From Terramyces sp. JEL0728 (Eukaryota; Chytridiomycota; Chytridiomycetes; Rhizophydiales; Terramycetaceae): 37,068 nucleotides of DNA. Under the pieces are notes generated by a model. That model was not told the origin of the DNA. It ran no database searches and saw only the letters and a list, made by a program, of their open reading frames with translations. The stretch spans positions 1-37,068 of the forward strand of contig JADIIU010000122.1 of NCBI GenBank assembly GCA_027603945.1, read 5' to 3'. A program made the position numbers and the translations under genes. Positions 281-36,968 of this stretch are shown in pieces; the stretch's first letter is position 1, and each line of letters starts with the position of its first letter.

Positions 281-1115
281 TTATTGTGAAGCGAGTAAAC
301 GTTCACGGCGACGGTCACGTTCTTCAGAGATAGAAAGTTTGACACCCTTTCCTTTTGGAAGAGAGATTAATGGCTTGTTTCCTTGCCCGATAACAAAGAC
401 GTTTCCAATACGGGTAGCAAAGGTGTGGCCAAGAGCATCTTTAATGTGAACAATTTCGAAACCACCTTGGTGCTTTTCACGGTGGGTAATGACACCAATA
501 CGTCCCATGTTGTTACCGCCAGTAACGTAAGCTACGTTTCCGTTGTCGAATTTAACGAATTCAGTAATCTTTCCGGTTTCAATATCAATCTTGACAGTGT
601 CGTTGACTTTGACTGCTGGATCTGGATAACGAACAGTTCTTCCATCGTGAGTAACAGCGTATGGGATAGCTTTTTGTCCAAGTTTGACTTGCTTAACTTT
701 GCAGAGTTTGTATTTTGCTTCTTCTTCAGTAATACGGTGAATTGCAAATCTTCCCTTAACGTCGTAAATCAAACGGAAGTTTTCTCCAGTCTTTTCAATG
801 GAAATAACATCTACAATTAAAATCTAATTACCCATGAATCCGGCTGGGTAGGTGATATCAGTACGGACTTTTCCATCGACTTTAATCAAACGTTGCATAA
901 CAATGGATTTGGTTTCCTTGTTGGTGAGTGCATAACGAAGACGGTTGCGGATGAAAACAATCAATGGAAGACATTCACGGGTCTTGTGTGGACCAGCAGA
1001 TGGTTTTGGTGCCCATGTACCAGTGAGTTTGTCCAACATCCAGTGCTTTGGAGCATTTAAACGCTTCATGTGCTTCTTTGGTCCTCTTGCCTACCGTTAA
1101 TGTCTAGTGTACCAT
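281..1115 (-). CDS. RPS4: 40S ribosomal protein S4 (eS4)
   Basis: The spliced CDS is complement(281..810, 832..1090, 1113..1115), giving 263 aa, the usual length of eukaryotic S4. The protein starts [20 protein letters not shown] and contains the conserved stretches [20 protein letters not shown] and [11 protein letters not shown], with a basic C-terminus. It is a structural component of the small ribosomal subunit with an S4-type RNA-binding domain, a central domain and a KOW-like region. Two tiny introns interrupt it: 22 nt at 1091-1112, immediately after the ATG so that the first coding exon is only the start codon, and 21 nt at 811-831. Splicing restores the frame exactly at both sites. 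It diverges from the EF-P-like gene. Confidence 0.97.
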
Positions 1116-1491
1116 CTTAAAAAAGTGAAGTTGGATTTTTTGAAGTTTTCTTTTTCTTGAAAAAACTGTGAATTTTCATTGGCTGAAAAAAATTAATTCC
1201 CCGAAACTACTGGGATTAGGGTTAGTCTCAGCCTGCCACATGAAATTATAGTGGCTGGTATGCGAATCTTCAGAATATTATCTGGATAGATATTGCAGGT
1301 GCCGTGTTTGACTCTCACAATCAGCACTTGTCTCTGTGTATCTCGCGCAGATAAAGACATAATAAATTAGGCATTGGTATTTTGTTTCAGAGACAGAGGT
1401 CAGTATTCCAGGTTATAATCCAATTCAAGCTTACCTTTAGATAGTCTCATTACCAAGACCGTGAAATCATTTTTTTGAAAAATTCCATCAC
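1116..1491. other. intergenic region between divergent RPS4 and EF-P-like genes
   Basis: These 376 bp hold the promoters of two divergent genes. T-rich runs lie next to the RPS4 start (about 1135-1165). A short inverted repeat, GCCAC at 1236-1240 and GTGGC at 1251-1255, is visible, and a telomere-like TTAGGGTTAG occurs near 1216-1225. I see no tRNA, no convincing snoRNA boxes and no coding exon. Confidence 0.4.
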
Positions 1492-2108
1492 ATGCAACTC
1501 AAATACATTCGCCAATTCACCAGACAGTTAAAAACGGAAATATCAAAAATAAAAAAAGGAAACATTGTCAAGCACAACGACAAGCTGTACCTAGTAGTCC
1601 TAGCGCAAGCAAGATCTCAGGGAAGGGGAGGAGCAATTCACAAACTGGATTTAAAAGACCTGAATTCAAATTCAAAAATAACTGAGCGCTTTAATGCCAA
1701 TGCCAATTTGGAAACTGTTGAGCTTGAACAGAAGCGATTGAATTACTTGTACACCGATGAGCAAATTATTCTTGTGGATGAAGATTACAAAGAGTACAAT
1801 GTTCCCTTGGACCTAATTGACTGTAATTCAAATTAATGCTAGCCAAAGTATTACCATTCTTGAACAGCGAAATGGAATTCAAAGTTGATTTTCATGAAAG
1901 TAAACTAGTCGGGGTAAAGATCCCAGACAAGACGGTTGCCAAGGTAGTCAGCAGTGGAGTAGTTAAAAACTCTACTGGCGAATCATCAAAAGCACAAAAG
2001 ATGGCCGAGTTGGAGAACGGGGTCAAGATTAGCGTTCCGGAATTTGTCAAGGATGGTGATGAAATTGTAATTGATTTGAATGAAATTGCTTATCTATCAA
2101 GGAAATAA
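1492..2108 (+). CDS. EF-P-type translation elongation factor, probably mitochondrial
   Basis: The CDS is join(1492..1822, 1843..2108), giving 198 aa, with a 20-nt intron at 1823-1842. Splicing yields the junction LDLIDSKVLPFL and rejoins the KOW-like N-terminal domain (IKKGNIVKHNDKLYLVV), the central OB domain (FNANANLETVELEQKRLNYLY) and the C-terminal domain (KISVPEFVKDGDEIVID) of bacterial-type EF-P. EF-P relieves ribosome stalling at polyproline. About 15-18 basic residues precede the EF-P core and look like a mitochondrial presequence, so action on mitoribosomes is inferred. The tip of the modified loop reads SQGRGGA, with Arg at the position that is Lys in E. coli EF-P. It converges with the Zds-like gene, with 76 bp between stop codons. 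Confidence 0.85.
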
Positions 2109-2184
2109 ACTTATTTTGAAACTAGGACCGAGTTTTTCCTGTAAAAGGATAATTGAACAGACGTCTACTAAATCGTATGTATTT

Positions 2185-4209
2185 TTATTCTTTTTTAGCT
2201 TGCAACATGCCTAATGGTACATCATCTTCTTCGTCACTATCATCTTCAGTAGGAGGAACACGCCTTCCAGGAGCAACAGCTTTTGGTTTGCGCGGTTCAT
2301 CATCGTCATCTTCTTCGTCACTGCTACTTTCACTTGAGTCGCTGTCTGCATTCTTGACAGGTATCTTTTTCTTTTCACCAAACTCTACCAACGGCTGAAC
2401 AGGCTTTCTACGTTTCTGTTTGCGGCGATTTCGCCTTGGGCCTCTACCGCGCAAAGTGACATCAGAATGTACTGATAGGATATATAACATCAAGTTTGAG
2501 ACTTGAACTTGCTGGAGTAGTGGTCGACCTATTTGTGATAGTTTGATGTGCGAAAGAGAATACACAAACTTTTCTTTTTCTGGATCCAATCTGTTATTTG
2601 GAAGATGTGACCAATCTGGGTATGGGTTCCATTCGGATTCTGATTCAATGATTTTTGGTTTGAGTTTTGGAATGAATTTAGTGATCCACGACCATGGACT
2701 TTTTGGTTGTTTCTGTGAAGTTTGTGCCCATTGAACTGGAGGCTCCTGTGAAGTTGGAAGAGAGAATCGTTCCTTATTGAATTCTCTTAGACTCAAGTCT
2801 ATATTTTGTGAAGATCCGTCATAGCTTTCGCTCATCACTGGTATCGATTCTTCAACAGGTGCAGATATTTCTGCTGTTTCCACTTTTCCAACTGTTTTAA
2901 TTGTTTTCAGTTCGGTAGAAACTGCCAATTGCTTTTCTTGTATTTTTGGCAATTCGAACTGGATTTCGGGCTTGTCTTCCTTTTCGGCAATATCGGGCAG
3001 ATTTTCAGTAGTGGGAGTAATATTAACATGAGAGTCGCTGAATTTCGTTGGTCTATTGGCTGATTTTCTTCGCGATAAACTGGGAACTGGAATGACTTCT
3101 TCTTCATCTTTCTGATCTGTAGTCAACAGCCATTTTTTCATATCAAAAATATCTTCGTGTGGATCAATAGGATTTTCAAATGAATCCAGAGTAAGAAACC
3201 TTGGAAGCGAAGTCCTGGAAGGCGAAACAGAGAGGTGGTCTGATTTTCGTTCTAATGACGGATGTCGCTTCAATTCCTTGGAGATATCAATATCAAATTC
3301 AGATGAAAACGAAACACTTGTTCTTGCCGGGGTAGTATGCATTCGTTTTAGAATAGGTGATTTTTGAATTTTCGGAGTATCGGGTTCTGTATTGCTTGGA
3401 CCAGTCTTATCAAATGACGTGTGTAACTGCAAGTCTTTCAGCAAGTCAATATCAAGCCCGCTAATGTCTATCTTTGGTGGCAAGTAATGTTCCGCCTTTT
3501 GCCCACTTGTAAAGCTTTCCGGGCGAACTGCTTTCTTTTTTGCAGCTGGCCTTCTCGACAAACTGGGGACAGAAGTAGTGGGGCTCTTTAATGAGAAAGG
3601 GCTTGTCGCAGTCGAGTTGGATCCGTCTGATTCTGCTTTTTCTGTAACACCTTCGCTAATTGCACCGTATTTTGGATCAAGTGAAGGCCGTAGCTGCAGC
3701 GGCGGACTTACGGCCTCCTTTTTCAAGTTCTCAATAGTGGTTTCCTTTGAATGAAAAGTAGGGGCTGGCATTCTTGATATATCCAAACTACCGGTTCGGT
3801 TTGCGTAAATATCTCTTGGATAGGTCCTCTCGTCAATGCTTGATCGCACATCCTTTGCAATTTCGTCCGGTGTTAGCGAATCCCAATTTCTAATTTGTGC
3901 AACTGTTGATGCCTGTTGGAAATCTAACGCTCGGATATCCTGTGGTTAGCATTCACTTACAGGCTCACTGTTTTCCTTCTTTTTGCCAAAGAAGAACGAT
4001 CGTTTCTTGAGAGATTTAAATAAGCTCTTTTCCTTGTCGTCATTTTGAAACATTCCAAAAAACTTTGAAGTTTTCTTTGATATTGTGCTTATTGCTGGTG
4101 AGGATTGCGACATACTGGGCTGCTGGTAAAATGAGGTTGAGAGCGATGAAGATGTCCTTGAATTTTGCCGGTACATTGGCTCTTTTCTATCCTGTTCCCT
4201 CTCGCTCAT
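2185..4209 (-). CDS. Zds-like protein (Zds C-terminal motif)
   Basis: The CDS is complement(2185..3939, 3961..4209), giving 667 aa, with one 21-nt intron at 3940-3960. The N-terminal half is Ser/Thr/Pro-rich and disordered. Around residues 542-575 lies YSLSHIKLSQIGRPLLQQVQ followed by VSNLMLYIL, which resembles the Zds_C domain of yeast Zds1/Zds2, regulators of PP2A-Cdc55, Cdc14 release and polarity. It is followed by an RG/KR-rich segment (RGRGPRRNRRKQKRRK) and a long Ser/Asp/Glu tail, so the motif is internal rather than at the very end as in yeast. A conserved-looking segment, NWDSLTPDEIAKDVRSSIDE, lies just after the intron. The family call comes from motif memory; the role in this organism is inferred. 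It diverges from CDC73. Confidence 0.55.
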
Positions 4210-4513: not shown

Positions 4514-5723
4514 ATGTCGAAATTTCAGTTTGTCAGAGACTTGCGAAATTCAATAATAAATTCAACTTCATTTCAGCTCTGGGTTGATCCAAATCAAAAA
4601 ACAAACGATGTACTTGCAGCTACCCTAATCTCATTTGAAAATACTCCACCGCTAAAATTATCGGATCCTTCTGGGTATAACGAATACGATTCATGGACTG
4701 TACTATTCTTTTATTTGAACAAGCAATTAGATCACCCAACGTATTTACAGTTGTGCGCAGGGAAAAACAAGGAGAGTGTTTCTTTCTTGGATCGAAGAGA
4801 TTTGCTGGATTTCCTAACTGGCCAAACTGCCGAAAGCGTCCATGTAAAGAAAGCAATTGTTCAAGATGGTACGGAATTTCTAACCAGACAAAATGAATCA
4901 GGAAGCACAGATATTTGGATTTGATTTGAGCAAGAAACGCGAATTAGTTACTGAAGAGATGCAGCAGGTGGCCAATATTAATATCAGGATTACCAAATCG
5001 TAAAGAAAATCAAGACATATCAAAGGACTATTGTAAGTCAAATTAATGCAGAATACAAGCAACAGTATCCTATGTATCAAGAGCAGCAAGAATTTTGCGA
5101 ATATCGAAAAGCCAGCTTTCCATTCTTTCATGTCCGGAAAAGACAAGAAAGATGTCAAGCAACAAAAGCCAGCGGAAAAAAAGAGTAACTATTTAGTAAT
5201 CCAGAAATCGTTCCAATTATTATTGTTCCCGCTGCTTCCCAATCACTATTAACATTGTACAATGCACAACAGTTCCTTATTGATCAAAAGTACTCTGGAT
5301 TAACAAAGGTTCATCTCTTCAGAAGAAATTAGACAGAAAGGAGAAAAGAAGCCAATGCAGTTGACAATCACCCGAGATCCAAAGAAACACGCAATATCGA
5401 AATTCCTGGTTATTGATTCTATTGACACCATGACGGAAAAAGACTGGGGTAGAGTTGTAGCTGTATTTACATGTGGACAAGAATGGCAGTTCAAAGGATG
5501 GAAGTGGGAGAAACCCGTGGATATATTTTCCAAAGTGCTTGGATTCTCTTTGAAATTCCAAGATGAACCACCGAGTGGAAGTTTGGCTCAATGGAATGTA
5601 AAAATACTGGATGTAAATCGTTGTTGATCCTAGATTAATCGAACTAGAAGATACTTGGATGTTAAAGTAATTCATTCGTTTTGGCATGACCTTGATCAGT
5701 TCTTGCTGAGCAAAAAGTTTTAA
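4514..5723 (+). CDS. CDC73: Paf1 complex subunit Cdc73 (parafibromin)
   Basis: The spliced CDS is join(4514..4868, 4888..4967, 4988..5032, 5052..5184, 5205..5289, 5309..5612, 5634..5723), giving 363 aa with six introns of 19-21 nt. Cdc73 is part of the Paf1 complex that travels with RNA polymerase II. The N-terminal domain contains YDSWTVLFFYLNKQLDHPTY and a DRRDLLDFLTG block. The Ras-like C-terminal domain begins near residue 205 (IVPIIIVPAASQSLLTLYNA), continues through QKGEKKPMQLTI and ends in RRYLDVKVIHSFWHDLDQFL, all typical of the family. Every splice is required to keep the conserved blocks in frame. The start is uncertain: upstream in-frame ATGs at 4454 and 4484 exist, but 4514 (MSKFQF) best matches the family N-terminus. 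Confidence 0.93.
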
Positions 5724-5900: not shown

Positions 5901-6512
5901 TTAGACCATCCCAGCATACAAATTAAGAGAATTCATTATCATTGGATCGCTCCTTGCTCCGTCCAAAAATTCTTGTTTACTCAAGAAGCCGTCGTTATCC
6001 TTATCCATCAACCGAAATACTTTTTCAACTCGCTTATTTGGTGTATCTTCATCTTCTCCCAGCACTTGTGTGGGTCTATCTTAGTAATAAAGTACCCCAC
6101 CATTCTGTAAATTGAATCGACTACTGCTAGCATCTCCGCAGGTGATATCCGGTCATCCTCATCCAAATCAAACAACCTGAACGATACTTCCAGCCGTTCT
6201 TCTAATGTACCCCTCGCACTGACGTCCAAAGCCTGTATAAATTCGTAGAAATCAATTTCGCTGTTCTGGTCTCTATCTATCAGCTGAAAAATCAAAGAAG
6301 CGTATTTTGTTGAATCTCCGAATGGGAAATAGTTTTTATAAATTGCTGAAAATTCTGGTTTGGAAATGTAACCTTTTGGACAGTCTCGCATGAAGCCGCG
6401 ATACCATTGTTGAAGTTCTTTTTAACTCTAATGTACCTTTTTCCGTGAAGCGGGTTTTCTGGCGCAGCTCTTGGACTGTTTCGTTGGATAGCTTTGAACT
6501 TGCTTTTCCCAT
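5901..6512 (-). CDS. NCS1: neuronal calcium sensor 1 / frequenin
   Basis: The CDS is complement(5901..6075, 6096..6417, 6437..6512), exactly 190 aa, the length typical of NCS-1/Frq1. Introns of 19 nt (6418-6436) and 20 nt (6076-6095) are removed. The protein begins MGKASSKL, an N-myristoylation signal. The first EF-hand is degenerate (DCPKGYISKPEF), and three EF-hands look competent: DRDQNSEIDFYEF, DLDEDDRISPAEM and DKDNDGFLSKQEF. NCS-1 binds and activates phosphatidylinositol 4-kinase (Pik1 in yeast) at Golgi membranes. An in-frame ATG 24 nt upstream was rejected because it would bury the myristoylated glycine. It converges with CDC73, with 177 bp between stops. Confidence 0.95.
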
Positions 6513-6763: not shown

Positions 6764-8491
6764 ATGGCAGTTCCAGATCTCAATACAATAAATGAGCAGG
6801 AGCTCCAGCTATTTGCAAAGGGCTTGGGACTGGACCCGGTTGGTCCTCGTTCAGCAGTAAAAGATAGAGTTATACGATATTTGAAACAAACAAATCCGTC
6901 GCTGCTTCCGCAATCAAAGAAGAGGAGATCAAAGAAAAAGAAGAGCGAGAAGCAAGAACCACAAGCAGAGAAAATCGAGCCAATACAGGACGAGGCGGAG
7001 GCGGTAGATGCAGAGGTTGAAATCGTACCAGAGACATTAAGGGTTGTAGGAACATTTGAAGAATTTTCCCAAGTATTTCAAAAATTCAATACACTCTCCA
7101 CTAGAAGATACGAAAAAGACGACGAGGAGGAACAGGTGGAAGAAGATGACGATAATGAATTTGTCGACAAAGAAGAAATAAGGCAAACAAAAAAGAAATT
7201 AAAAAAGCTGAACAGAATGACTGTTGCGCAGTTGAAACAATCTGTACGGAAACCTGAGGTTGTTGATTGGGTTGATGTTACTTCGTCTGACCCGTTGCTA
7301 CTAGTACAACTTAAATCTACACGAAACACAGTGCCAGTGCCCTCTCACTGGTCCCAAAAGAGGAAATATCTGCAAGGTGATTGAAATTAATATAGGGAAA
7401 AGAGGCATAGAGAAGCCACCATTTGAATTGCCGGAATATATCAAAGCCACTGGTATTATGCAGTTAAGACAAAGTGGTCAAGGTCCACATTCGCTACAAG
7501 GAAAAGCCAGGGAAAGACACAATCCGAAACTAGGCAGATTAGATATTGATTATCAAAAACTGCACGATGCATTCTTCAGATACCAAACCAAACCACTGTT
7601 TTCTCAGCATGGCGATATATATTTTGAGGGTAAAGAATTTGAAACCAGACTGAGGATGAGGAAGCCTGGTGTCTTGTCTGAAGAGTTGAAAATTGCATTA
7701 AACATTCCGCATTTGGCACCGCCTCCATGGTTAATCAACATGCAGAGATACGGACCACCGCCATCTTATCCGCAATTAAAAATACCTGGGTTAAATGCTC
7801 CTATTCCTGAAGGTGCTCAGTGGGGATTTCATCCTGGTGGTTGGGTACATTTTATTAATCTAGGGTAAGCCTCCATGTGATGAATTCAACAGACCGTTAT
7901 ACGGCGATGTATTTGGGACACACAAACCACAGGTATCCAGTGAATTTGTTGCTGAAGTTGAAAGTAAGCTATGGGGTGAATTGGATACTGAAGTGGAAGA
8001 AGAGGAGGAAGAAGAAGACGAGGAAGAGGAAGACGATGAAGAAGAGGAACAAGGTAATTGCAATTAATATAGAAAGCGTATCCGGCCTGGAAACGCCTTC
8101 TGGAATTGCTTCGGCAGTGCCAAGTGGTATCGAAACTCCGGATTTCGTTGAAATGAGAAAAGAAGAACGAGTGATGGAAACCAGAAAAGAACAAAAATCT
8201 TTGTATACTGTCTTGTCCTCTACTGAAAAAACCACATCTGGATTCATGGCGTCCACACATACATACCAGGTCAAAGACAAACTAGGTTTAGCAAACAAGC
8301 AAGTTGATGTGTCCCTTAACCCCGAAGAACTTGAAAATATTGATCAAGAGACGCTCAAACGCAAGTATGAAAGCAGCAAACCACAACAGCAGCAGAAAGA
8401 AGATTTCAGTGATATGGTAAACGAACATGCAGAGAAACAGGCATTTAAACGTCAAAAGAAGGAAGAACCCAAAAAAAAGTTTAAATTCTAA
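6764..8491 (+). CDS. CUS1: splicing factor 3B subunit 2 (SF3b145 / Cus1)
   Basis: The CDS is join(6764..7376, 7396..7844, 7864..8053, 8073..8491), giving 556 aa with three introns of exactly 19 nt. It is a U2 snRNP SF3b subunit acting at branch-point recognition. A SAP-like segment (about 5-45) is followed by a basic/acidic stretch, then the DUF382 core with VPVPSHWSQKRKYLQGKRGI, the PSP domain with PPPWLINMQRYGPPPSYPQL, the glycine-rich block WGFHPGGWGKPP and the C-terminal KEDFSDMVNEHAEKQ. An acidic tract is encoded around 8000-8050. An in-frame ATG at 6731 could add 11 hydrophobic residues (MESPFLFLLFF), but 6764 fits a nuclear protein better. It is notable that a branch-site factor is encoded here, given the tiny introns. 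Confidence 0.95.
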
Positions 8492-10377: not shown

Positions 10378-11675
10378 CTAGTACAAGACCCTAGTTTGAA
10401 TATTTTCTAAATTAATAAAAATTACCTGGCATTGCGTTGAGCGCATTATGAATGGAAACAAAGTCTTCTTCCTTTTCTACCGTTACATCTGCCATGAAAT
10501 AAGCTACCGCATCTTTGGAATCACAAATTTGCTTTTCAATGTTGTAATCTGAAAGTACTTTGTTGATTTGCTTCAATACACCAGGAACATTTTGATGGAT
10601 ATTGATTACACGGATAGTAAGCGAGTCTGCACTTGGGGATCGAATATCTACCTCTGGGAAGTTGACCGAGCCTAATGTGGACCCAGTGTTAATGTACTTT
10701 ACAAGAGCAGATCCTACTTCAATACCAATAGAAGACTGTGCTTCTTCGGTAGAACCACCTAGATTAATGGCAATTACCGATATGAGGAGTCAAGATAGTG
10801 TTTGGACATCCAATTAAATCAGATTCAAATCCAGGTCCATTTTTAAATGGTTCAACTGGGAACACATCCACAGCTGCACCAGCCAAGTGTCCGCTAACAA
10901 GAGCTTCTTTCAAGGATGGAATATCAACAACAGTACCTCTTGAAGCGTTAATGAAAATGGCACCCTTCTTCATCAATCCAAATTCTCTTTTCCCAACCAT
11001 GTTTTTGGTTTCTGGTGTTTCTGGGACATGTAGCGAAATAAAATCACATTTGGACAGCAATTCTTCTAATGACGGTAACGGAACTGCAGAACCTAGAGGC
11101 ATGGTTTGTAAAATATCAAAAAAGTAGATTTTCATACCAAACGAGTCGGCAAGAACAGACAACTGAGATCCAATGTGTCCATACCCAATAATGCCCAAAC
11201 TCTTTCCTCTAATTTCGTGGCAGTTAGATGAGACCTTGTTCCATACACCGTTATGCAATTCAGTATTACGATCCCCCATTTGTCTCGACAAGGCAATAAT
11301 TTGTGCAATAACCATTTCAGCTACACTTCTACTATTACTGAACGGGGAATTGAAGACGGAAATACCCCGTGAAGCAGCAAATTGTAAATCGACTTGGTTG
11401 GTACCAATACAGAAACAACCAATAACACGCAACTTTTCGGCATGCTGCAATATTTCCTTGGTTAATTGGGTCTTTGAACGGATCCCGATTGCATGTACGT
11501 CCTTGATTTTTTCTTTTAGAGTTTCAATATCAAGAGCTTTAGGATGTGATTCAACCTGATAACCAGCATTGCGCAGGATATTTTGACCAGTTTCATTTAG
11601 TCCTTCTAGTAAGAGCACTTTGATATCACCGGAATTGAATGGCTTTAGGGTCTTTGAACGGATACTCGCACGCAT
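10378..11675 (-). CDS. SER3: D-3-phosphoglycerate dehydrogenase
   Basis: The CDS is complement(10378..10406, 10426..10758, 10778..11675), giving 419 aa with two 19-nt introns. It catalyses the NAD-dependent first step of serine synthesis from 3-phosphoglycerate. The substrate-binding domain is followed by the Rossmann motif GIIGYGHIG (about 161-169), the catalytic set Arg246 in NASRG, Glu275 in VFPVEP and His298 in LTPHIG, and a C-terminal ACT domain (about 345-419) ending in QTRVLY. The last exon is only 29 nt and supplies the conserved C-terminus; without it the protein would end at MPGN. An ACT domain suggests serine feedback control. Confidence 0.96.
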
Positions 11676-13409: not shown

Positions 13410-14853
13410 ATGAATGAACAAGAGCAAGAAATAATTGCATTAAAGGTGCCCAATTCTAATCCAGGGCATATACGAGGATTTATTCCTTACCGACAACACT
13501 CTTTCAATCCCCATAGAAAACAACACTAATTTAAAAATTGAAAATCAAATTTACGAAATTAATCACTTGCCGGATATCCAATTACACTTTGAATACAATC
13601 CAAACTATCCGGAATCTGAATATTTAACATTGAAGCTGGAGTGTGCATGGATTTCCAATTTGCAGGAGCTTTACGATTTATTTTATTCATGGTGGGAAGA
13701 ACAACGGACAGTAGTTTTATTTCAGATCATTGATTTCTTACAGCATGATTTATTCAATCATTTTGATTGGGCAAAGGAGGTTGATGTGGATTCGTTTGGG
13801 GCTATCATTGAAAAACTGCAGCCTGGCACTGATACAGCTCATTCTGCGAATCCAGCTATTGAAAATACTGTAAATTCAACCCCTTCCAACTGTCCGGGAG
13901 CACGGCCGAAGGATATTGAAAGTCAAAACAACCCAAACAGAGCCAAAGTCACTGTACTTGAAATTCCAAACATCAGCTACGAAATATTTGATTCGTTATT
14001 AGAGTTCCACAAATTCAAGACAAAGCAGGTATTTGAAGGTAAAAAGCATACTTGCGGTATTTGCATGGAGTCAAAACCAGGAACAGAATGCTTTCAATTC
14101 CAGTTATGCAAACATGTGTTTTGCACTGACTGCATCACTACTTTTTTCAAGTATCTGGTGGAACAAGGAGATGTTGCTCAAGTATGTTGCCCAGATCAAC
14201 AATGTAAGAAAGAATCTCTCAATAATCCTATTAATAACGGCCTACACCATATTCCGTATTCAGACTTGCAGAAATTATTAACAGAAAAAGAACTAGATCG
14301 ATACTATTTGCTTTTTTACAAACGTTCATTGCAAGACCGCAAAGATGTTACTTATTGCCCGAGACCAATGTGCCAATACCCATGTACTTTAGAAGGTGAA
14401 AAGAAACTAGTGATTTGCAAAGCTTGTGACTACTGCTTCTGTTTTTACTGCAACCAAACATGGCACGGCTACTCTCAAGCCTGTCAAATGCGAAAACAAG
14501 ATCAAATCATTATAGATTATATGAACAGTGAAGATGAAGTCAAGGAACTATTTGAACTTCAATTTGGCAAAGAGAATTTGGTGCGAATGGTTGAACGCTA
14601 CCACAGCGGCGTGCTCACTGAAGAATACCTACATCAAAATTCACAGAAATGTCCACGGTGTAGCACATGGATTGAAAAGCATAGTGGTTGTAATCACATT
14701 ACTTGTACCTGCAACTGCCATTTCTGCTTCTTGTGCGGAAATGAACTTGGGCTAGATCCACTTTTGCATTACTCTTCTGGGCCATGTAAAAACAAACTAT
14801 TTCATGGCGCGAAACAAGAGTTTGATGAGGATGGAAATCCAATATTCCACTAG
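13410..14853 (+). CDS. RNF14-type RBR E3 ubiquitin ligase (RWD + RING-IBR-RING)
   Basis: The CDS is join(13410..13445, 13465..14853), giving 474 aa. A 19-nt intron at 13446-13464 follows a 12-codon first exon; splicing creates EIIALKGIYEDLF, the typical start of an RWD domain (about 1-110). RING1 begins at CGICMES (about 209), followed by an IBR with CPRPMCQYPC and CKACDYCFCFYC, and RING2 CPRCSTWIEKHSGCNHITC, whose Cys421 in SGCNH corresponds to the catalytic cysteine that accepts ubiquitin from the E2. The domain order RWD-RBR is that of RNF14/Itt1, linked to translation termination and to clearing of stalled or crosslinked ribosomes. All zinc ligands appear present. Confidence 0.94.
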
Positions 14854-21173: not shown

Positions 21174-23599
21174 ATGTTCAAATGCCTCTATCGAAAAAAG
21201 CAGACCAAGAAGCACTCAACTTGGGATAGCGATGGATATTTGAAACTAGGAGCAAGCATTACACTCCTGGATGAGGACAAGCAGATATTAAAGACTACCG
21301 CCATGAAAAAGATTGATACCGAAATTATCAATGTTGGTGGGCTTGAAGTACTCGTTCCCCTAGATGAAATTACTGTATACATGGCGAATGGCACTGGTAG
21401 CTTGCCAGACGACCCAGTAGTAGTGCAGAAACAATCAAGCAACGCTCCTCTTAAACCAATGAACAAGACATTGAAATCGCTGCCGAATTTAAAGAAATTG
21501 GCCACAGTTGGATTAAAGAAACCTCTTGCAAGAACCTCCTCGAACGTCATTGAGAAATTCAAAGTTATTTACAAGAAAAAGGGATCAAAAAATTGGGAGA
21601 ATGATGGAATATTAACAGTTGATGGACCTCAAAGTACAATCACCAGTGATACCGGAAATGTTATTGCTTCAATTTCGACGCCTGGCACGACGAACGGAAC
21701 CGAGTTCACAGCTGGCTCAAGGACTTTCCAAATTACGGATACCTTCTCTGCAAACAGCCCGAAAAAGACAAAGCTTGTGCAATCTGAATTCAAAACACCT
21801 TTAATTGGATATAAAAAACCGCAATTGCACGGATCTACTAATGTTATAAAACCAGGATCTGTTTTAATGACGCGTCCAAATAACGGAAATGTGCGAGATG
21901 TGGTATTGGATCAGTTCATAGCAAGTAAGCAATTTCTAATTAGAACACTTAAGACCACATCAGGTTGATGGAGTTAAATTCTTGTATGAGTGTGTGATGG
22001 GATTCAAAGGGCAATCTGGGGCAATCCTTGCGGGTAACCAACTTTAACATAGACGAGATGGGTCTAGGTAAAACTGTTCAAGCCGTTACGCTAATCTGGA
22101 TCCTCACAAAGCAATCGCCATATGTCAATGTTGCACCGCCTGTCAAACGCACTCTGATTGTTTGCCCAGCATCTTTGGTGTCAAACTGGCACAAGGAAAT
22201 CAAGAAATGGCTGGGTATTAGAATGAATGCGTACAAGGCCGGTGATTCAGTGCGAGATTTCTTTGTTGGACGTATTTATTCAGTTTTGATTGTTGGGTAT
22301 GAGAAACTGAAAAAATTCCAAGATGAAATCCTAAAAGGAAATTTTGATCTATGTATCTGTGATGAAGGTATTTAATTCTAATGTAAGGTCACCGCATCAA
22401 AAATGGTAACATCCAAGCTTCCCAGATCCTGTCCAATCTCCCCACAAAACGTAGAATTATTTTATCAGGCACTCCTGTTCAGAATGATCTTATAGAATAC
22501 TATCATATGATTAATTTTGTAAATCCAGGTATTTGTAGGTTAAAGTAGATCTACTTGGTTCTATCCCTGACTTTAAACGAAAATTTGAAAAGGAAATTAT
22601 AGAAGAAAAAAGTAGGGAAAAGATCAACCAATTCCTTAAACTAAGCTCCAGTTTTGTGCTGCGAAGAACAAGCGAAATTAACCAGAAATTCCTGCCTCCT
22701 AAAGTCGAATCAGTCGTATTTTGCGAAATGTTTGAAAAACAAACAGAATGTTACAAGGAAAAGTTGGATATGCTAGATGAGGATGAAAACATTCTATCAT
22801 CTCTTCAAGATTTGCGCAAAATCTCAAATTGCTCGAGCCTGTATGATGAGAACCTGAAGGGCGGATCAGGAAAATTTAGGGTTATCCGGAACCTATTGCG
22901 CAAGATCAAAGATGCAGGCGAAAAAGTTGTAATTGTGTCCCATTATACGAAAACGCTTGATGTGTTTGATGGCTTTCTTGCCACTATGAGTTGCAGATTC
23001 AATCGATTGGACGGGAGCACCGCATCTACAAAGCGACAAGAGTACTCACTATTAACTTTAGATTGGTTGATCACTTCAATAATGACAAGAATATCTTTGC
23101 ATTTCTCCTAAGCGCCAAGGCTGGTGGAGTTGGGTTAAATCTAATAGGAGCTTCTAGACTGATCCTCATTGATATTGATTGGAATCCTGCTGTAGACCAG
23201 CAAGCAATGGCTCGTATTTGGCGTGAAGGTCAAAAGCACCCGGTGTTCATTTACAGATTTATTTCTTCTGGAACTATTGAAGAACGAATTTTGCACAGAC
23301 AAATGTATAAAACAGAGATAGCCAATCAAGTTATAGATTCACAAATATCTACTAAATCCTTCTCAAAAGAAGAAATGAGGGAACTGACTACTTTGCACGA
23401 AGGTGAATGTCTAGTACACGAGCTTAGTGAATGCACTTGCATGGATGGTTTGGATGATGGGATTGTTGATAGAAGACATTTCAACAGACACCATGTTGAC
23501 TCGAATGAACTGCTGGATTACAGAGACATTCTCTTGAACGAGGTATTAAAAGAGAACAAGAATGTTTCTTTTCTAATGATTACAAACACAACCAAATAA
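21174..23599 (+). CDS. RDH54: Rad54B/Rdh54 family SWI2/SNF2 recombination ATPase
   Basis: The CDS is join(21174..21924, 21944..22033, 22053..22367, 22388..22528, 22549..23041, 23062..23599), giving 775 aa and five introns of 19-20 nt. Two copies of the Rad54B-type N-terminal domain (DUF2439) appear at about 1-70 ([16 protein letters not shown]) and 129-190 ([13 protein letters not shown]). The ATPase has DEMGLGKT (281-288, Lys287), DEGH (384-387), SGTPVQN and the C-terminal helicase block [18 protein letters not shown] with a Q-x-x-AR-x-x-R-x-GQ motif. It should remodel Rad51 filaments and D-loops in homologous recombination. The doubled N-terminal domain separates it from Rad54. It ends 14 bp from the stop of the convergent gene. 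Confidence 0.93.
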
Positions 23600-25273: not shown

Positions 25274-28200
25274 ATGACTCTTCTCGAACTGTATGGAGAA
25301 TTTCACCCAGACGCAGCTTTTGACTTTGAGGAATCATTAAAGAAATTCAAGTAAGCACATATTTATGCAGTAATCATTTGGAATCATTCAAAGAGATTTT
25401 GAATTTGGAAGAAGAAATTCCTTTCAATGACCCATTCGCTGAAATTGTTCCAAGCCGAGAATCAACTCCACAGGCAGTTGAATTGTCTTTGGAAAATAAG
25501 GGAAATTATGATCGCGATTGGTTGTTAAACCAGTGTGAGGTTCACACCGCTGACTCTGGATCTGTATTGGAACCTGAACAACTGTGTACAGACTTATTTT
25601 CAATACTGCGACGACCAGTGAGTGAAGACATTCAAAATGCGCTAGTGGATTTACTTGGGTATACGAATTTGGAGTTTATTGGAACATTAGTTGAAAACAG
25701 AACGGCGATTGTGGAAAATATCATGCGCAATGTAGTTGACTTTTTGACTTTAGGCACCGGTTGAAAAGGAAGTTGTGCAGGATAAACAACCGAGAGTGAT
25801 GAGGCCAACTTATGGAACTCAAGTCACGGTTCAAACAGAAGCCGAAAAGCAAGCCAGTAAGCAAGCAAGAAAAGAAATGAAGAAACAGAAAAAATTGACC
25901 AGCGGTACTTTAGTTTTTATCCAGGCGAAAACGAAATCGTAGCTTCAGCAAATATTTTGGGCTTTGGAGGGGAAAGGTTGAGAGATATTCGAGCTCAACA
26001 ATTAGCAGACAATGTAGCTAGGCCGAAAGTATCGAATAGCAGGCCAAAAGTAGAAACTCCAGTGTATCCTAATGTTTACCAATCCGGCGATGGAAACTCT
26101 CATTTGTCCATGTTTGACACACAGTATGTTCTCCCGATTGGAACGGAAAGAATCGATGAGAAGGATTTCGAAGAAGTAAAGATCCCCGTATCAAATCCAG
26201 CCCCAGTTAGAACTACTGAAAGCAGCATCACGGTTGGCATGTTTGAGGAGTGGATCAGACCAACTTTTAAAGGATATACAGGATTAAACAGAGTTCAATC
26301 AATTGTCTATCCGATTGCATTCCAAACGAACGAAAATATGTTGGTTTGTGCCCCAACTGGTGCTGGTAAAACAGATGTTGCCATGTTGACAGTTTTACGA
26401 GCCATCTCTCAAAACAGACAAAATGGTGTCATTGACTTGGACAGCTTCAAAATTATCTACGTTGCCCCAATGAAAGCCTTGGCAGCAGAAGTTGTCCGCA
26501 AATTCTCTGGAAGACTTGCACACATGGGTATGAAGGTTAGAGAGCTAACTGGTGACATGCAAATGACAAAAGCAGAAATCGTGGAAACGCAGATGATTGT
26601 TACTACTCCAGAAAAATGGGATGTCGTTACTAGAAAAAGTGTTGGCGATACGGAATTGGTGCAAAAAGTTCGTTTGCTGATTATTGATGAAGTGCACTTG
26701 CTTCATGAAGATCGCGGTGCTGTGATTGAAAGCATAGTCGCACGTACTTTGCGTATGGTTGAATCAAGCCAATCAATGATAAGGATTGTCGGGTTATCCG
26801 CGACTCTTCCAAATTATGTTGATGTAGCATCGTTTTTAGGTGTCAATCTTTACAGGGGATTGTTTTACTTTGATTCTGGGTTCCGCCCTATTCCTTTGGA
26901 ACAAAACTTTATTGGTATTAAATCCAAGGCTGGGTCTCCAAGCTACAGGAGTAAGTTGAACGAAATCACATATTCAAAAGTATCTGAATTAGTGAGGGAT
27001 GGCCATCAAGTGATGGTGTTTGTCCATTCAAGAAAGGATACTGTCAACAGCGCAAAAGCCCTGCTTGAAGAAGCAAGAAACTACGGAGAAGAATCACTAT
27101 TTTCAGGAGAAACCCATGAGCAATATGGTATATCCCTTAAAGATACACAGAAATCCAGAAATAGAGAATTAAAGGAGTTGTTTCCGTTCGGGCTAGGTAT
27201 TCATCATGCAGGTATGTTGCGCAGCGACCGAACAATGACTGAGCGTATGTTCGAAAAGGGTGTGCTGAAGGTGCTATTTTGTACTGCAACTTTGGCTTGG
27301 GGAGTCAATTTACCTGCCTATGCGGTAGTAATTAAAGGTACGCAATTGTACAATGCAGAAAAAGGTGCATTTGTAGACTTGTCAATCTTGGATGTTTTGC
27401 AGATTTTCGGAAGAGCCGGAAGGTTTGTTTAATTGCTAACATAGACCTCAATTCGAAGATCGCGGTGTTGGATTCATCGTAACTTCTCATGATCGTCTTA
27501 ACCATTATGTTTCTTCAATGACCCGACAGCATCCTATCGAATCATCATTTGGCAAGAACTTGGAAAACAATTTGAACGCAGAGATATCGCTCGGAACCAT
27601 CACAAACATCGAAGAAGCAATTAGATGGCTATCCTACACATATTACTTTGTTAGAATGCGCAAGAATCCATTCCAATATGGAATAGACTGGAAAGAATTG
27701 GAAAGTGACCAAAATTTGGTTGGGAGGAGGCGAGATATGATTGCAATCACTGCGAGAAAGCTACACAAAGCTCAGATGATTGTTTTTGATGACAGAACTG
27801 GATATCTTACTTCCAAAGACCTTGGCAGAATCGCTAGCAATTTTTATATCAATTATGATACAGTTGGAGGGATCAATTCTGTGATGCGGCCACAAATGAC
27901 TGAAGCAGATGTGTTTGCTATGCTCAGCAAAAGTACCGAATTTGAAAATATCAATGTTCGTCAAGAAGAGATTGTTGAATTGAAAAAATTGGAACAAAAT
28001 TGTGAATGTAAAGTTAAAGGCGGAACAGATACAAACTATGGCAAGACAAATATTCTATTGCAGGCGTATATTTCCAAATCAAGGATTGATGATTTTGCAT
28101 TGATTTCTGATTGTGGATATGTTGCTCAAAACTCTAGTAGGATTTTAAGAGCACTATTTGAAATCGCTCTCAGCAGAAATTGGGGCCCAGTTGCCTCTGT

Positions 28201-31200
28201 GATTCACTCGCTCTGTTTATCTGTTGAAAAGAGATTGTGGTCCTTCCAGCACCCGTTAACTCAGTTTGATTTGCCGGCAGATATCTTGTACAAGGTAGAT
28301 CAAATCCCGACTACAATCAGTATTGAAGAAATGCGAGATATGAACGAAAACGAGTTGGGCGAATTGATTAGGCATGTCCGTATGGGATCCCTGTTAAAGA
28401 AGTGTGTAAAGCAGTTCCCCGTATTGCATTTATCAGCATCAATCGCACCAATCACCAAAACGGTACTACGTGTGACTCTGGAAATAACTCCAGATTTCCA
28501 ATGGTTCGATCGAATGCATGGAAATATGGAGCCGTTCTTTATTTGGGTGGAAGAATCCGAAAATGCAGAAATTTTATATACAGAAACCTTCTTGTTGCAT
28601 AAACGCCAAATCAAGGAAACTCAGAAGCTTGGGTTTACGATTCCTATCCCAAGATCAAATTCAACCGCTGATGGTTTGCCTTCGCAGATTTTCATCAGAG
28701 CGCTATCTGATCGCTGGCTAGGGGCTGAGACAATACTTCCGGTTTCTTTCAAGCATTTAATATTGCCCGATCAACATCGTACAACACATACGGACTTGCT
28801 GCACTTGGATCCTTTACCTATTTCTGCGCTGCATAATCCTTTGTTGGAGGCAATCTGCGAGCAAAGATTCCAATTCTTCAATCCGGTCCAAACTCAGGTG
28901 TTCCACACATTGTATAACACTTGTCACAATGTGTTACTTGGTGCCCCAACCGGTTCGGGGAAAACCGTTGCTGCAGAATTGGCCCTGTGGTCTGCGTTTA
29001 GAGATTTCCCAAACTCAAAGGTGGTATACATTGCCCCGTTAAAAGCCCTAGTTCGGGAACGAGTGCAAGATTGGGGCAAGCGATTAGCTCCAGCTATGGG
29101 GAAACGTTTGGTTGAACTGACTGGCGACACGACGCCGGATCTTTTGACAATTGAAAAGTCGGATATTATTATTGTACCTGCTAATTAACATTAGACTACT
29201 CCTGAAAAGTGGGATGGGGTTAGTAGATCTTGGAAAAAGAGAAAGTACGTATCTCAAGTATCATGTGTAATAATTGATGAAATTCACTTGCTTGGAGGTG
29301 ATCGCGGGCCAATCCTCGAGGTTATTGTGTCGCGCATGAATTACATTTCTGCATTTACTCAAAACAAGATTCGGATTGTTGGGCTTTCTACCGCGTTGGC
29401 GAACGCGACTGATTTAGCTGACTGGCTTGGCATTGGAAATGTAGGATTGTTCAATTTCAGACACAGTGTTAGACCGGTTCCGTTAGAAATCTATATTGAG
29501 GGATACCCTGGAAAGCACTACTGTCCCAGGATGATCTCTATGAACAAGCCTACTTATGCAGCGATTATTACACATTCACCGACTCAGCCGGTAATTGTTT
29601 TTGTTTCTTCAAGAAGACAGACAAGATTGACTGCTCAAGACTTGATATCTCTGTGCTCCAACGATGAAAACCCTAAAAGGTTTTTGAACATGCACGAAGA
29701 AGAAATGGAATTTATCTGCTCTCAAATTAAAGACCAGGCATTAAAAGTCACGCTGCCATTTGGTATTGGGCTGCATCATGCTGGCATTGTTGACAAGGAT
29801 AGAAGAATTGTCGAAGAGCTATTCTGCAATGGTAAAATCCAAGTATTGATTGCAACATCTGTAAGAAAATGCTAACTGTAGACTCTTGCGTGGGGAGTAA
29901 ACTTTCCTGCTCATTTAGTGGTGGTAAAAGGTACCGAATTCTACGACGCAAAAATTAAAGGCTACAAAGATTTCCCGATAACTGACGTATTGCAAATGAT
30001 GGGAAGAGCTGGAAGACCCCAGTTTGACGATTCTGGTGTGGCAGTAATTCTGGTTCATGATGTCAAAAAGGATTTTTACAAGAAATTCTTACATGAACCT
30101 TTCCCTGTTGAAAGTTCCTTGCACGAATGTCTTCATGAACATTTAAATGCGGAAATTGCTTCTGGAACTATAAAAAGCAAGCAAGATGCTATGGATTATA
30201 TGACCTGGACTTATCTTTATAGACGCGTTGCAATGAATCCTACCTTTTATGGATGCGAAGATGGATCAGAAGAGAAAGTAGGGCTTTATCTATCTCAACT
30301 GATTGAAAAAATTCTATTTGATCTGAATGAATCCTATTGCGTATCCGTAGAAGATGATTTGGTAAAAGCAACTCCGTTTGGCGCAATAGCCTCCTATTAC
30401 TATCTTCGCTATTCTACGATAAAGACTATGAAAAAAAGATTAGCAAGAAATTACTCCAATACAGGCAACCCAGAACTTGGCGAATACGAACATGGGCACT
30501 TTTCGAAACTGTTGCGTATTCTTTGTGATTCTGCTGAATATGATGACCTTCCATTGCGTCACAATGAAGACTTGGTAAATCAAGAATTAGAGCCTCAGTT
30601 GCCAATTCCGGTGCGAGAAAAGCGCGATACACCGTTTGATGATACTAATCAGCCACCCTACAAGTATGATGATCCACATGTCAAAGCCTTTTTGCTTTTG
30701 CAAGCGCATTTATCAAGATTCACTAAATTCTCCTGCGCTGATTACATTACTGATACTATTAGCGTACTTGATCAAGCAATCAGAATCACCCAAGCAATGA
30801 TTGATGTTGCCAAATTCAATGGCTACTACCACCTGATAGTGGGGTTAATCAACGTGCTGCAGTGTGTTAAACAAGCAATGTGGCCAACTGAAAACATGTT
30901 TGGCTTGGAAACGAAATTGATTGAATTCAAAAACAAAGACCGGGAAGAAATTACCAAAATGCTTTCTGGGGTAAAGAATTCTAAAGAAATCATGAAAGTC
31001 ATTCCAAGATTACCTTTTATTGAAGTCGAACTCCAGGTGATTGATGGTAAGCACAAACAAGGAAGATGGTACTTGGAGTCTGGTAAAGAATACTCACTCT
31101 CAATTGCCCTCAAGAATTCAAAAATAGGAGAAAACATCTACTCTAAATTCCCTAAACCTCAAACTCAAGGCTACTTTGCAATTCTTTCAGATCGCAATGA

Positions 31201-31929: not shown

Positions 31930-32207
31930 TTAGATTCTTTCGTCAAATTTAGTGCGCAACAATGCAGGCAAATGATCATTGTGTTCCTTATGAGAGATGT
32001 ATCTCTTTACATAACCTTCTTGCTCCTTTGTTTCAAATGTAACTGGTGGTTTTGCTTTCAATTGGTTGTATTTTGAAACAGAGTAATAGATACCGGCATA
32101 AATACCGACGGTGTATAATACGACCTAGAATTAATTGAGAGTACTCTGTATCTGTGGATTTTGAGACCAAAGACGTTGAATATTTCGTATGGATTACCTC
32201 CTCCCAT
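31930..32207 (-). CDS. ATP19: ATP synthase subunit k (Atp19-like)
   Basis: The CDS is complement(31930..32124, 32145..32207), giving 85 aa, with a 20-nt intron at 32125-32144. The protein begins MGGGNPYEIFNVFGLKIHRY, has one membrane segment (VVLYTVGIYAGIYYSV) and a C-terminal part with KPPVTFETKEQEGYVKRYI, similar in layout to fungal Atp19, where the membrane helix is followed by PPI-x-A-x-SKEEE-x-F. Subunit k belongs to the dimerisation region of the mitochondrial ATP synthase. The gene is small and the match is by pattern only, so the subunit identity is moderately sure. Confidence 0.65.
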
Positions 32208-35190: not shown

Positions 35191-35262
35191 AGAGCCGAGA
35201 GGGATTTGAACCCCCAACCTTCCGATCTGGAGTCGGATGCACTACCGTTGTGCTATCAACCC
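35191..35262 (-). tRNA. tRNA-Trp(CCA), copy 2
   Basis: Identical over all 72 nt to the copy at 33131-33202, on the opposite strand. The flanks differ, so the copies were made by duplication of the gene alone or are held identical by gene conversion. A run of seven T (minus strand) follows within 2 nt of the 3' end and should terminate Pol III. Confidence 0.93.
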
Positions 35263-35293
35263 ATGGACATTTTTCCTGCGTTTTTGTAACTAG

Positions 35294-35446: not shown

Positions 35447-35625
35447 ATTGCCAAGCACTCTATTTGCGGATTTCCAAATGAAAGTACAGCAGATGGAATA
35501 CAATGCTAACCTCTAACTCTGGGTTAGAAATCCAGATTGCCAACTAAATCTGGAAATACCAATAAATATTATTCCAAATTGCGATAACAAATCCAAAATA
35601 GAACAATTTGCAAGAGAAAAAAAAG

Positions 35626-35697
35626 AGAGCCGAGAGGGATTTGAACCCCCAACCTTCCGATCTGGAGTCGGATGCACTACCGTTGTGCTATCAACCC
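35626..35697 (-). tRNA. tRNA-Trp(CCA), copy 3
   Basis: Identical over 72 nt to the other two copies, including T at position 73, and in the same orientation as copy 2, 363 bp away from it. A run of eight T follows on the minus strand as terminator. Only about 10 bp next to the mature ends resemble each other between copies, mostly the CTC-T tail. Confidence 0.93.
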
Positions 35698-35799
35698 ACG
35701 TGTCAACATTTTCAAATGACATTTTTCAATATTACTTTCAAACGATACCCAGCCAATGTTTTCTAACAGGAAACTTCAAATTTAACTCAAAAAGACTCG

Positions 35800-35967
35800 C
35801 TAATAAGTGTCAGAGAACACCTTGGCGTCACCTGGGTTCTCACTTTGATTCACTGATACAACAATCATACACTGCTGCCAACGACAATCGAGTTCATAGA
35901 TTTGGTCTACATGGCGATCTCTTTCAAATTCCACATCAAAAATATTGCTTGTAATTCGATATTCCGT
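35800..35967 (-). other. 55-codon open frame downstream of ATP synthase subunit e
   Basis: Directly after the subunit e stop codon another frame is open (RITSNIFDVEFERDRHVDQI, then YELDCRW) down to a TAG at 35800-35802, with no early ATG. It could be an alternative last exon, a relic or chance. The 270-bp stretch between tRNA copy 3 and the subunit e gene otherwise holds only a plus-strand frame of similar length with no recognisable content. Confidence 0.15.
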
Positions 35968-36322
35968 TTATTTTTGATTTTCAAGTTGCTTTGATTTCCA
36001 TTCAAAGTACAAATCATCATTAAATTTGTATGATTCAAAGTCGACACATGGAACTAGAATTAGTTGTATTTACCTCCATCCTTCTTTGCAAGTTCAGCTT
36101 CTTCTTTCTTTTCTTGGGCTTCAAATGCAAGTTTGGCTTCTTCAACCAAATCTTCATACTTTCTGCGAGCAGTTTGTTCATTTCTGTCCTTTACATAATA
36201 AGTGAGACTTCTTTGTTTAGAAAATCCGTAGGAGACTCCAAAAACAAGAGCACCGAGACGCAATAACTAATTTTAGTAATTCGTTGTACGTTGACTGAAT
36301 GGTGGTTGATGAGTGATGCCAT
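35968..36322 (-). CDS. TIM11: ATP synthase subunit e
   Basis: The CDS is complement(35968..36053, 36074..36266, 36290..36322), giving 103 aa; introns are 23 nt (36267-36289, the longest found here) and 20 nt (36054-36073). Splicing gives the N-terminus MASLINHHSVNLLRLGALVF, a membrane helix with the G-x-x-x-G motif (GVSYG) used for dimerisation, then YGFSKQRSLTYYVKDRNEQT and a charged coiled-coil (KLAFEAQEKKEEAELAKK). Subunit e sits at the ATP synthase dimer interface that shapes cristae. The first exon holds only 11 codons. It diverges from the inhibitor-2 gene with 59 bp between start codons. Confidence 0.85.
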
Positions 36323-36381
36323 CTGAATGGTTTTTGAAAAAATTTTGAGCAGTCGAAATTTCAGTTTCCCAACCCTAGACA

Positions 36382-36968
36382 ATGAAAAAGAATAGCATAC
36401 TGAAACGCCCAACAGATTCCCAGAATGGACAGAAAGGGTGGGTTGTATTAATATAGGATACGATGGGATGAAGATAATTTGGCCATCACCGAAGCACAAA
36501 AAGACTCTACGATGAAAATCTTGGAGCCAAAAACACCCTATATCCACTACGACGCATCTATGGATGAACTCAAAGGCACCTCCAGCCAAGGCGTGCCGCC
36601 AATGGAACTAGAGCGAGCGATTAATCTGCAGAATTCTCTTAAGCGTGAAAATTCCCAGGAGATTCCGTTTGATGTTGACAAGCAGTTGAATATCAGCAGC
36701 AAAGAGCACGACTGGTCGGAAGATGAAGAAGACCCAAAAGGTTTGGTTTGCTAATACAGAAAAACAAAAGCACCAGAGGTTCAAAAAGATGCGGGCAGAA
36801 CACTATGATATGAAAGAGGTTTTATCTCACGCAAAGGATTTATTGGAGAGCGAGCTGGAAGATGAGAATATTAATGACCCCAATAAGTATGAAGTTGAAG
36901 AAGCACAAACACCCAACGTTGAAACAGATTCCGAAGACGAATTATCGAATAATCATACCAGAAATTGA
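36382..36968 (+). CDS. GLC8: protein phosphatase 1 regulatory inhibitor-2 (Glc8-like)
   Basis: The CDS is join(36382..36437, 36457..36740, 36760..36968), giving 182 aa, with two 19-nt introns. The family's three PP1-contact regions are visible: SILKR (residues 5-9, equivalent to KGILK), GIRWDEDN (about 19-26, equivalent to KSQKWDE) with [13 protein letters not shown] next, and [17 protein letters not shown] (equivalent to the HYNE region) after the second intron. Inhibitor-2 binds PP1 catalytic subunit and regulates or chaperones it. The start codon is chosen because the first exon is needed for SILKR. The C-terminal tail is acidic. Confidence 0.92.

Follow-up and report, generated by a model that had tools for sequence, protein, structure and literature searches.

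Probable U2-type introns of near-uniform 19–23-nucleotide length in a likely flagellated fungus or fungal relative

Nucleomorphs, ciliates and mikrocytids are known to possess classes of ultrashort introns. In chlorarachniophyte nucleomorphs more than 800 introns of 18–21 nucleotides (nt) are distributed over about 300 genes, the heterotrich ciliate Stentor has introns of 15–16 nt, and mikrocytids combine 224 introns of 16–17 nt with 17–19 spliceosomal proteins (PMC10245619); in Paramecium the median is 24–25 nt and P. bursaria introns range from 15 to 100 nt, according to excerpts of a further study (PMC12862383). Mean lengths of 63 to 469 bp are recorded for four fungal species, with the 63-bp mean of Cryptococcus being called relatively short (PMC8476143), and no case of fungal introns near 20 nt was found among the open-access titles and abstract openings that were searched. 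The subject of this report is contig JADIIU010000122.1, which was analysed over its whole length of 37,068 nt (hereafter the window; contig C122 of an assembly of 15,016,339 bases in 231 contigs) and whose genes are interrupted by segments that have the appearance of U2-type spliceosomal introns and vary little in length, an interpretation supported by the sequence features described below. The source is most likely a flagellated fungus or a close fungal relative, as judged from its genes, and its sampled introns very probably form one narrow class of 19–22 nt (rarely 23) that is removed by a U2-type spliceosome.

Comparison with the described systems reveals both shared and distinct features. 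The nucleomorph introns occupy nearly the same narrow length window and are also many per genome (PMC10245619), but they belong to a relict, reduced nucleus, whereas the genome considered here spans 15.0 Mb and encodes complete-looking SLU7, PRP18, U2AF2 and BRR2. Heterotrich ciliates resemble it in carrying uniform ultrashort introns within a non-reduced nuclear genome (PMC10245619); unlike theirs, the present introns are 3–7 nt longer, and SLU7 and PRP18, which are both present here, are tabulated as not found in Stentor in the portion of PMC9505925 that was available. Mikrocytid introns likewise constitute a narrow length class with conserved motifs, but here each kb of predicted coding sequence holds about 1.5 introns and the parts checked show no sign of reduction, while microsporidia, which also provide short introns in relatives of fungi, have few introns and a reduced spliceosome (PMC10245619) in contrast to the many introns of this genome. 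Short introns are the main class in Paramecium too, although the range excerpted for P. bursaria is 15–100 nt as compared with the 19–23 nt seen here; with ordinary fungal introns, finally, the segments share GT-AG ends, U2-type character and a CTAAC-type branch motif. The preliminary description of the window had placed such lengths close to the physical limit, which is fair, even though the heterotrich and mikrocytid introns (PMC10245619) show that they are not a record.

Because such introns are reported from nucleomorphs, ciliates and mikrocytids (PMC10245619), the DNA might derive from a non-fungal member of one of these lineages, which we regard as very unlikely. A 15.0-Mb assembly with 12–13 dynein heavy chain genes (14 DHC_N2 matches, of which two are pieces of one gene and two score equally) does not fit a nucleomorph, and the standard code translates conserved proteins without interruption. 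Moreover, the Pfam domains of the window include, next to ALO, RWD, IBR, PIG-H and Vma12, a Gti1/Pac2 domain, which we take to be specific to fungi.

Within the window, start codons were fixed for 24 genes, and introns were placed by dynamic programming followed by manual review of the reading frame. The dynamic-programming model, which allowed GT-AG introns of 10–400 nt and scored the 5' site without any length or branch-point preference, returned 34 introns in the 24 genes, 24 of them 19–22 nt long; several of its long introns jump over an exon flanked by two tiny ones. The final curated set consists of 40 GT-AG introns in 17 genes, the other 7 of the 24 modelled genes being without intron, and comprises 17 introns of 19 nt, 14 of 20 nt, five of 21 nt, three of 22 nt and one of 23 nt, with none above 23 nt. 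Compared with the 41 introns in 17 genes first described (16, 14, six, four and one for 19 to 23 nt, none longer), the number of genes and the upper limit stand, the counts per length differ as given, and the forty-first intron was not found. If any single intron is retained, translation terminates ahead of the normal stop codon in all 40 cases, and 35 of the 40 lengths are not multiples of three. When the 256 possible pairs of terminal dinucleotides were compared by how well they restore coding sequence in the 24 genes under a flat signal, GT-AG ranked best (2011.9), followed by TA-AA (1992.0), with a median over all pairs of 1768.3; GT-AG ends that precisely interrupt coding sequence, a mark of U2-type introns, are thus found.

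Where comparison with known proteins is possible, the junctions fall in place. Removal of the two introns of RPS4 (eS4; minus strand), one of 22 nt immediately 3' of the ATG (1091..1112) and one of 21 nt (811..831), gives a protein that aligns without gaps at both junctions to two solved eS4 chains, scoring 459.3 bits against PDB 5oql, presumably from Chaetomium, and 458.3 bits against an eS4 X isoform. In the RAD54B-like gene (plus strand), introns 2 (22034..22052, 19 nt) and 3 (22368..22387, 20 nt) rejoin the blocks DEMGLGKT and CDEGHRIKN, respectively, in alignment with a RAD54-like structure, which together with the gene model also supports introns 1 (21925..21943, 19 nt), 4 (22529..22548, 20 nt) and 5 (23042..23061, 20 nt); the RPS4 and RAD54B junctions cited as examples in the preliminary description are therefore correct. 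Introns 5 (29174..29194) and 6 (29861..29881), both of 21 nt, of a long helicase gene on the plus strand rejoin IIITTPEKWD and ATSTLAWGVN. This gene was considered as a BRR2 candidate and rejected in favour of SLH1/ASCC3, since its first helicase half scores 783 bits for ASCC3 and 767 for SLH1 as opposed to 604 for BRR2; its introns 1 (25351..25370, 20 nt), 3 (25905..25924, 20 nt) and 4 (27423..27444, 22 nt) follow from the gene model. Splicing of the 19-nt intron of an RWD/IBR (RBR) E3 ligase-like gene (13446..13464, plus strand) raises the RWD match from 31.0 bits without the first exon to 47.0 bits, and the spliced product of a 3-phosphoglycerate dehydrogenase-like gene (minus strand) carries a full 2-Hacid_dh domain, which spans the site of intron 1 (10759..10777, 19 nt), intron 2 (10407..10425, 19 nt) resting on the model.

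The length pattern extends beyond the window. Tabulation of intron lengths, a check proposed at the outset, was run on the window plus 20 stretches of 10 kb from contigs C1–C17 (237 kb in total, 1.6% of the assembly) and gave a peak at 19–22 nt. A search for GT-AG excisions that join two coding frames, each 40 codons or longer, counted 26 cases of 19 nt, 40 of 20 nt and 19 of 21 nt, where seven control pairs averaged 5.6, 8.7 and 2.6; lengths of 23 to 160 nt all stay closer to their controls. The sample was also run through a gene finder whose length prior was flat (12–250 nt) and which had no branch-point term; it called 379 introns, of which 51, 77, 34 and 15 are 19, 20, 21 and 22 nt long (177 together), the remaining 202 being spread over 235 other lengths at less than one per length on average. 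The branch motif, which the finder did not use, occurs in 139 of the 177 introns of 19–22 nt and in 35 of the 202 others (Fisher p ~1e-34): 2/9 at 12–18 nt, 2/3 at 23 nt, 1/13 at 24–36 nt, 5/13 at 37–44 nt (including both tandem cases of the U2A' gene described below), 3/15 at 45–60 nt, 10/49 at 61–120 nt and 12/100 at 121–250 nt. With the branch term switched on and introns limited to 16–40 nt, the 200 kb outside the window yielded 252 introns in 111 genes, 223 of them of 19–23 nt, at 1.5 introns per kb of coding sequence; scaled up, this density would correspond to a genome total of the order of 15,000 introns. Counting the window, 21 stretches were examined, and short introns are present in 20 of them. 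The claim of near-uniform tiny introns is thus borne out in the window and beyond it, and the 237-kb sample holds a single narrow length class below about 25 nt, as in genomes with ultrashort introns.

One alternative is that the short introns are only one class and that ordinary introns of 50–200 nt were missed by the methods, which appears unlikely. Gene finding without RNA is weak in this range, and most of the 149 calls of 61–250 nt cannot be judged singly; these calls were considered as real introns and then discarded, since the branch motif is about as frequent among them as chance would give and they probably span the gap between neighbouring genes. Among the nine calls of 24–60 nt with a branch motif, seven hold an alternative of 20–22 nt that shares the 3' end, while two, of 40 and 33 nt, have no such short alternative and thus favour longer introns. 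On the other side, the length background is flat from 24 to 250 nt, with the branch motif mostly near chance there, and all 40 window introns are at most 23 nt long. It is scarcely credible that assembly or sequencing artefacts or gene decay account for the frame breaks: one apparent frameshift, in a hydrolase gene at ~15330–15345 of the window, does lack splice signals, but the breaks in general bear full splice signals and lie in core genes (RPS4, BRR2, U2A'), the protein is restored exactly wherever it can be aligned, and breaks occur in 20 of 21 stretches.

In keeping with the narrow length class, which remains the preferred explanation, the introns share a compact anatomy. The 5' splice site reads GTAA(G/T)T, a consensus favoured by the finder's own score, and the branch site reads (C/T)T(A/G)A(C/T); among the 139 introns with a branch motif, the branch A is nt 14 in 67, nt 15 in 61, nt 16 in 10 and nt 17 in one, and lies 5 nt from the intron 3' end in 74, 6 nt in 54, 7 nt in six and 4 nt in five, so that positions 14–15 and distances of 5–6 nt each account for 128 of 139. 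The 3' site is TAG in 126 and CAG in 37 of the 177 introns, the last exon base is G in 100 of 177, and the GC content of the intron middle is 31%. In most introns the 5' splice site is thus separated from the branch point by 13–14 nt, and the branch point lies too close to the AG for a polypyrimidine tract to fit in between. The motif in 139 of 177 introns is complementary to the GUAGUA sequence of U2, which is intact in the U2 RNA of this genome. GC-AG segments show no peak at 19–22 nt in the 237-kb sample, indicating that such introns are rare.

These features suggest how the introns may be handled. Each would act as a packed recognition unit, made up of 5' site, branch site and a (T/C)AG located 5–6 nt past the branch A, and would be removed by splicing in vivo: U1 and then U6 would read nt 1–6 and U2 would pair around nt 9–15, so that the U1/U6 pairing with the 5' site and the U2 pairing with the branch site would lie almost end to end, the catalytic core would close on the 13–14-nt span from 5' site to branch point, and the 3' site would be picked by its nearness to the branch point. 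We infer that no new chemistry would be required, because other lineages splice shorter spans, and that the early assembly path would have to differ from the human one.

The components of the machinery that were checked do not appear visibly reduced, as suggested by their gene models. U2 RNA gives a full-length Rfam match of 140 bits. SLU7 (477 aa) has its zinc knuckle and scores 415 bits; U2AF2 combines two RRMs with a UHM-like end, and its N-terminal part resembles S. pombe U2AF59; and BRR2, found on C16, scores 1655 bits against the U5 200-kDa helicase versus 1258 against ASCC3, its model comprising 2,120 aa and four introns of 20, 20, 21 and 21 nt. PRP18 (330 aa) matches positions 3–142 of the 143 in its Pfam domain at 178.5 bits once spliced, in contrast to two pieces of 109 and 55 bits on unspliced DNA; it had appeared truncated under the finder limited to GT-AG, an option discarded when, in addition to a 21-nt GT-AG intron, a 20-nt GC-AG intron (stretch L030, 1790–1809, plus strand) was recognised, whose removal makes the Prp18 domain continuous. 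The three proteins searched by family (SLU7, PRP18 and U2AF2) were hence all found and look complete, which counts against a reduced spliceosome as far as these three are concerned, their gene models containing introns of 19–21 nt, and a complete-looking U2A' gene is also present. U2, SLU7, PRP18, U2AF2, BRR2 and U2A' together place parts of a U2-type spliceosome in the same genome as the introns. A window gene on the plus strand, with 19-nt introns at 7377..7395, 7845..7863 and 8054..8072, encodes a spliced product with DUF382 and PSP domains, a pair that we take to be typical of SF3B2. The preliminary description had argued that introns so short would need an adapted spliceosome; this expectation gained no support from the parts checked, as U2 RNA, SLU7, PRP18, U2AF2, BRR2, U2A' and the SF3B2-like protein look ordinary.

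These components also bear on the idea that the segments stay in the mRNA and are bypassed during translation, or are eliminated from the DNA at a different nuclear stage. The very uniform short length would suit such a process, as would the 35 lengths that are not multiples of three, but GT-AG ends, a branch motif at a fixed place, a canonical U2 RNA and several complete spliceosomal proteins whose own genes carry the same introns all speak against it, making it highly improbable.

Besides the two longer calls mentioned above, several points weigh against splicing of a single narrow intron class. The sampled stretches come from the 17 largest contigs, one of them (on C16) having been picked for its BRR2-like matches and the others arbitrarily; the coding and 5'-site scores were trained on the same DNA, so that the 5'-site consensus is partly built in; and the spliceosomal gene models were made with a finder restricted to introns of 18–24 nt. 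The frame-joining search has no excess at 22 nt (8 versus 8.7), and the unbiased finder missed 15 of the 40 introns curated in the window and recovered the other 25, which implies that it undercounts. A strict whole-genome pattern (GTAAG N1-31 CTAAC N0-3 YAG) has 179 matches compared to 225 for its reversed control, so that only the length distribution and not the total counts as evidence; among the 100 listed of the 179 matches, 80 are 19–23 nt long (22, 26, 16, 11 and 5), four are 15–18 nt and 16 are scattered over 25–47 nt. On unspliced DNA, U2AF2 reaches 251.7 bits, below the family cut-off of 310.3. For U6 RNA, a covariance model run over the assembly gave only 27.4 bits (gathering threshold 44) with an alignment unlike a working U6, a gapped pattern over the assembly had no match, and a DNA query, uninformative on its own, returned no candidates; the gene may be split by tiny introns or fall in an assembly gap. 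A model search of the assembly for U1 RNA had no match, a result that is uninformative.

Two longer interruptions of the U2A' gene suggest that intron length may have an upper limit. This gene, on the plus strand of the stretch C12:50001–60000 (L021), is interrupted by 41 and 42 nt (0-based 5812–5853 and 6096–6138), each of which splits at an AG/GT junction into two complete introns (20+21 and 21+21 nt) that have their own branch motifs and are separated by a zero-length exon; excision of exactly 41 and 42 nt allows U2A' to be aligned without gaps at both places to its solved counterpart. Only four of 9,506 GT-AG segments of 38–44 nt in the sample split in this way, two of them being the U2A' pairs, and a scan for tandems in coding context found two for AG/GT (both in U2A') and two in total for seven other junctions; the argument therefore draws on position, protein fit and signals, not on numbers. 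U2A', whose gene holds the tandem pairs, is itself a protein of the U2 snRNP. An AG/GT junction with complete units on both sides, as in recursive splicing at zero-length exons, is therefore present at the two U2A' sites and common to the back-to-back introns. Recursive splicing is otherwise described for large introns, with a broader size range in one study known from an excerpt, whereas here 20–21-nt units lie end to end; in stwintrons, as partial sources describe them, one intron is instead nested in another.

The simplest reading of the U2A' sites would be that longer introns are not tolerated and that the tandem pairs are removed stepwise, although each interruption may instead be a single intron of 41–42 nt. 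Selection may keep introns within this length window, because no class above 23 nt can be discerned and both of the best-defined longer interruptions consist of tandem tiny introns. More tentatively, and with the balance of judgement somewhat against it, the spliceosome could act as a ruler that accepts only units of about 19–23 nt, so that longer interruptions would persist only as chains of complete tiny introns cleared recursively. If so, a length-limited spliceosome would nonetheless keep SLU7 and PRP18, factors that, reportedly from work in yeast, are important chiefly where a long distance separates the branch point from the 3' site.

The remaining window introns belong to genes whose spliced products mostly carry recognisable domains, including, in addition to RWD, the EFP, CDC73, EF-hand, mitochondrial carrier, ATP-synt_E, IPP-2 and SANTA domains of Pfam. 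On the plus strand, an elongation factor P-like gene with an EFP domain in its spliced product has one intron of 20 nt (1823..1842); CDC73, whose domain is likewise found after splicing, has modelled 19-nt introns at 4869..4887, 5033..5051 and 5290..5308; the SANTA-domain gene has introns of 22 nt (19915..19936) and 20 nt (20037..20056); the mitochondrial carrier gene has a second intron of 20 nt (17911..17930); and a protein phosphatase inhibitor 2-like gene with an IPP-2 domain has two of 19 nt (36438..36456 and 36741..36759). On the minus strand, an EF-hand (NCS1-like) gene is interrupted by introns 1 (6418..6436, 19 nt) and 2 (6076..6095, 20 nt), the latter supported by the model and the EF-hand domain, and an ATP synthase subunit e-like gene by introns 1 (36267..36289, 23 nt; ATP-synt_E domain) and 2 (36054..36073, 20 nt; retention leads to an early stop). 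Gene models place introns, also on the minus strand, in an uncharacterised gene (4209–2185; 3940..3960, 21 nt), the alpha/beta hydrolase gene (intron 1, 16080..16100, 21 nt; intron 2, 15556..15575, 20 nt), a 2OG-Fe(II) oxygenase-like gene (19494..19512, 19 nt), whose domain match is just below the family cut-off, and a small gene (32207–31930; 32125..32144, 20 nt). A Pfam search with one small spliced window protein found no domain. Weaker placements, based on frame and signals instead of conserved residues, are CDC73 introns 2 (4968..4987, 20 nt) and 4 (5185..5204, 20 nt, with a weak branch motif), intron 2 of SLH1, which can be read as 25735..25753 (19 nt) or 25732..25753 (22 nt), and intron 1 of the mitochondrial carrier gene (17501..17519, 19 nt, or 22 nt to 17522; model and domain also available).

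Other features of the window and assembly were recorded alongside. The Gti1/Pac2 (WOPR) regulator gene (8504–9223) is modelled without introns. The SANTA-domain protein (19840–21129; SANTA 38 bits) is unexpected in a fungus and has near its end a CENP-C-like motif, presumably as in KNL2/M18BP1 centromere proteins. In the alpha/beta hydrolase gene the apparent frame shift, seen by eye, is near the end, where a C-terminus like QYFSGKLPAKGICPPDAPIF sits in another frame with no splice signal in between, and reflects either a sequencing error or a real break. Three tRNA-Trp(CCA) genes lie at 33131–33203, 35190–35262 and 35625–35697, and the third, on the opposite strand, falls within a 145-codon open frame (35517–35954) that is possibly a gene disrupted by tRNA insertion. 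A putative secreted protein of 319 aa (11928–12887) is built of two halves that resemble each other, with a linker rich in lysine and threonine between them, and had no match in a Pfam search. Across the assembly, pairs of equal-scoring or identical matches (C37:38651–39838 and C56:16817–18004) and repeated pattern matches on C4, C18, C36, C42 and C44 suggest recent segmental duplications or unmerged haplotypes.

In human splicing, the shortest workable distance between 5' site and branch point is about 46–52 nt according to part of PMC11291888, and short distances need Smu1 and RED, which relieve the strain of short introns, according to part of PMC6692369. The 13–14-nt span described here would stand against this human distance in a genome where several key factors are retained in ordinary form. 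Genomes of this kind will be misannotated by gene finders that impose a minimum intron length. It could be asked what part SLU7, PRP18 and U2AF2 play when the distance to be bridged is small and a pyrimidine tract is missing. In a fungus, as a relative of yeasts whose spliceosome structures are known, how the spliceosome manages to close around such a short stretch of RNA would become directly testable. Such a system would separate the shrinkage of introns from the loss of the spliceosome.

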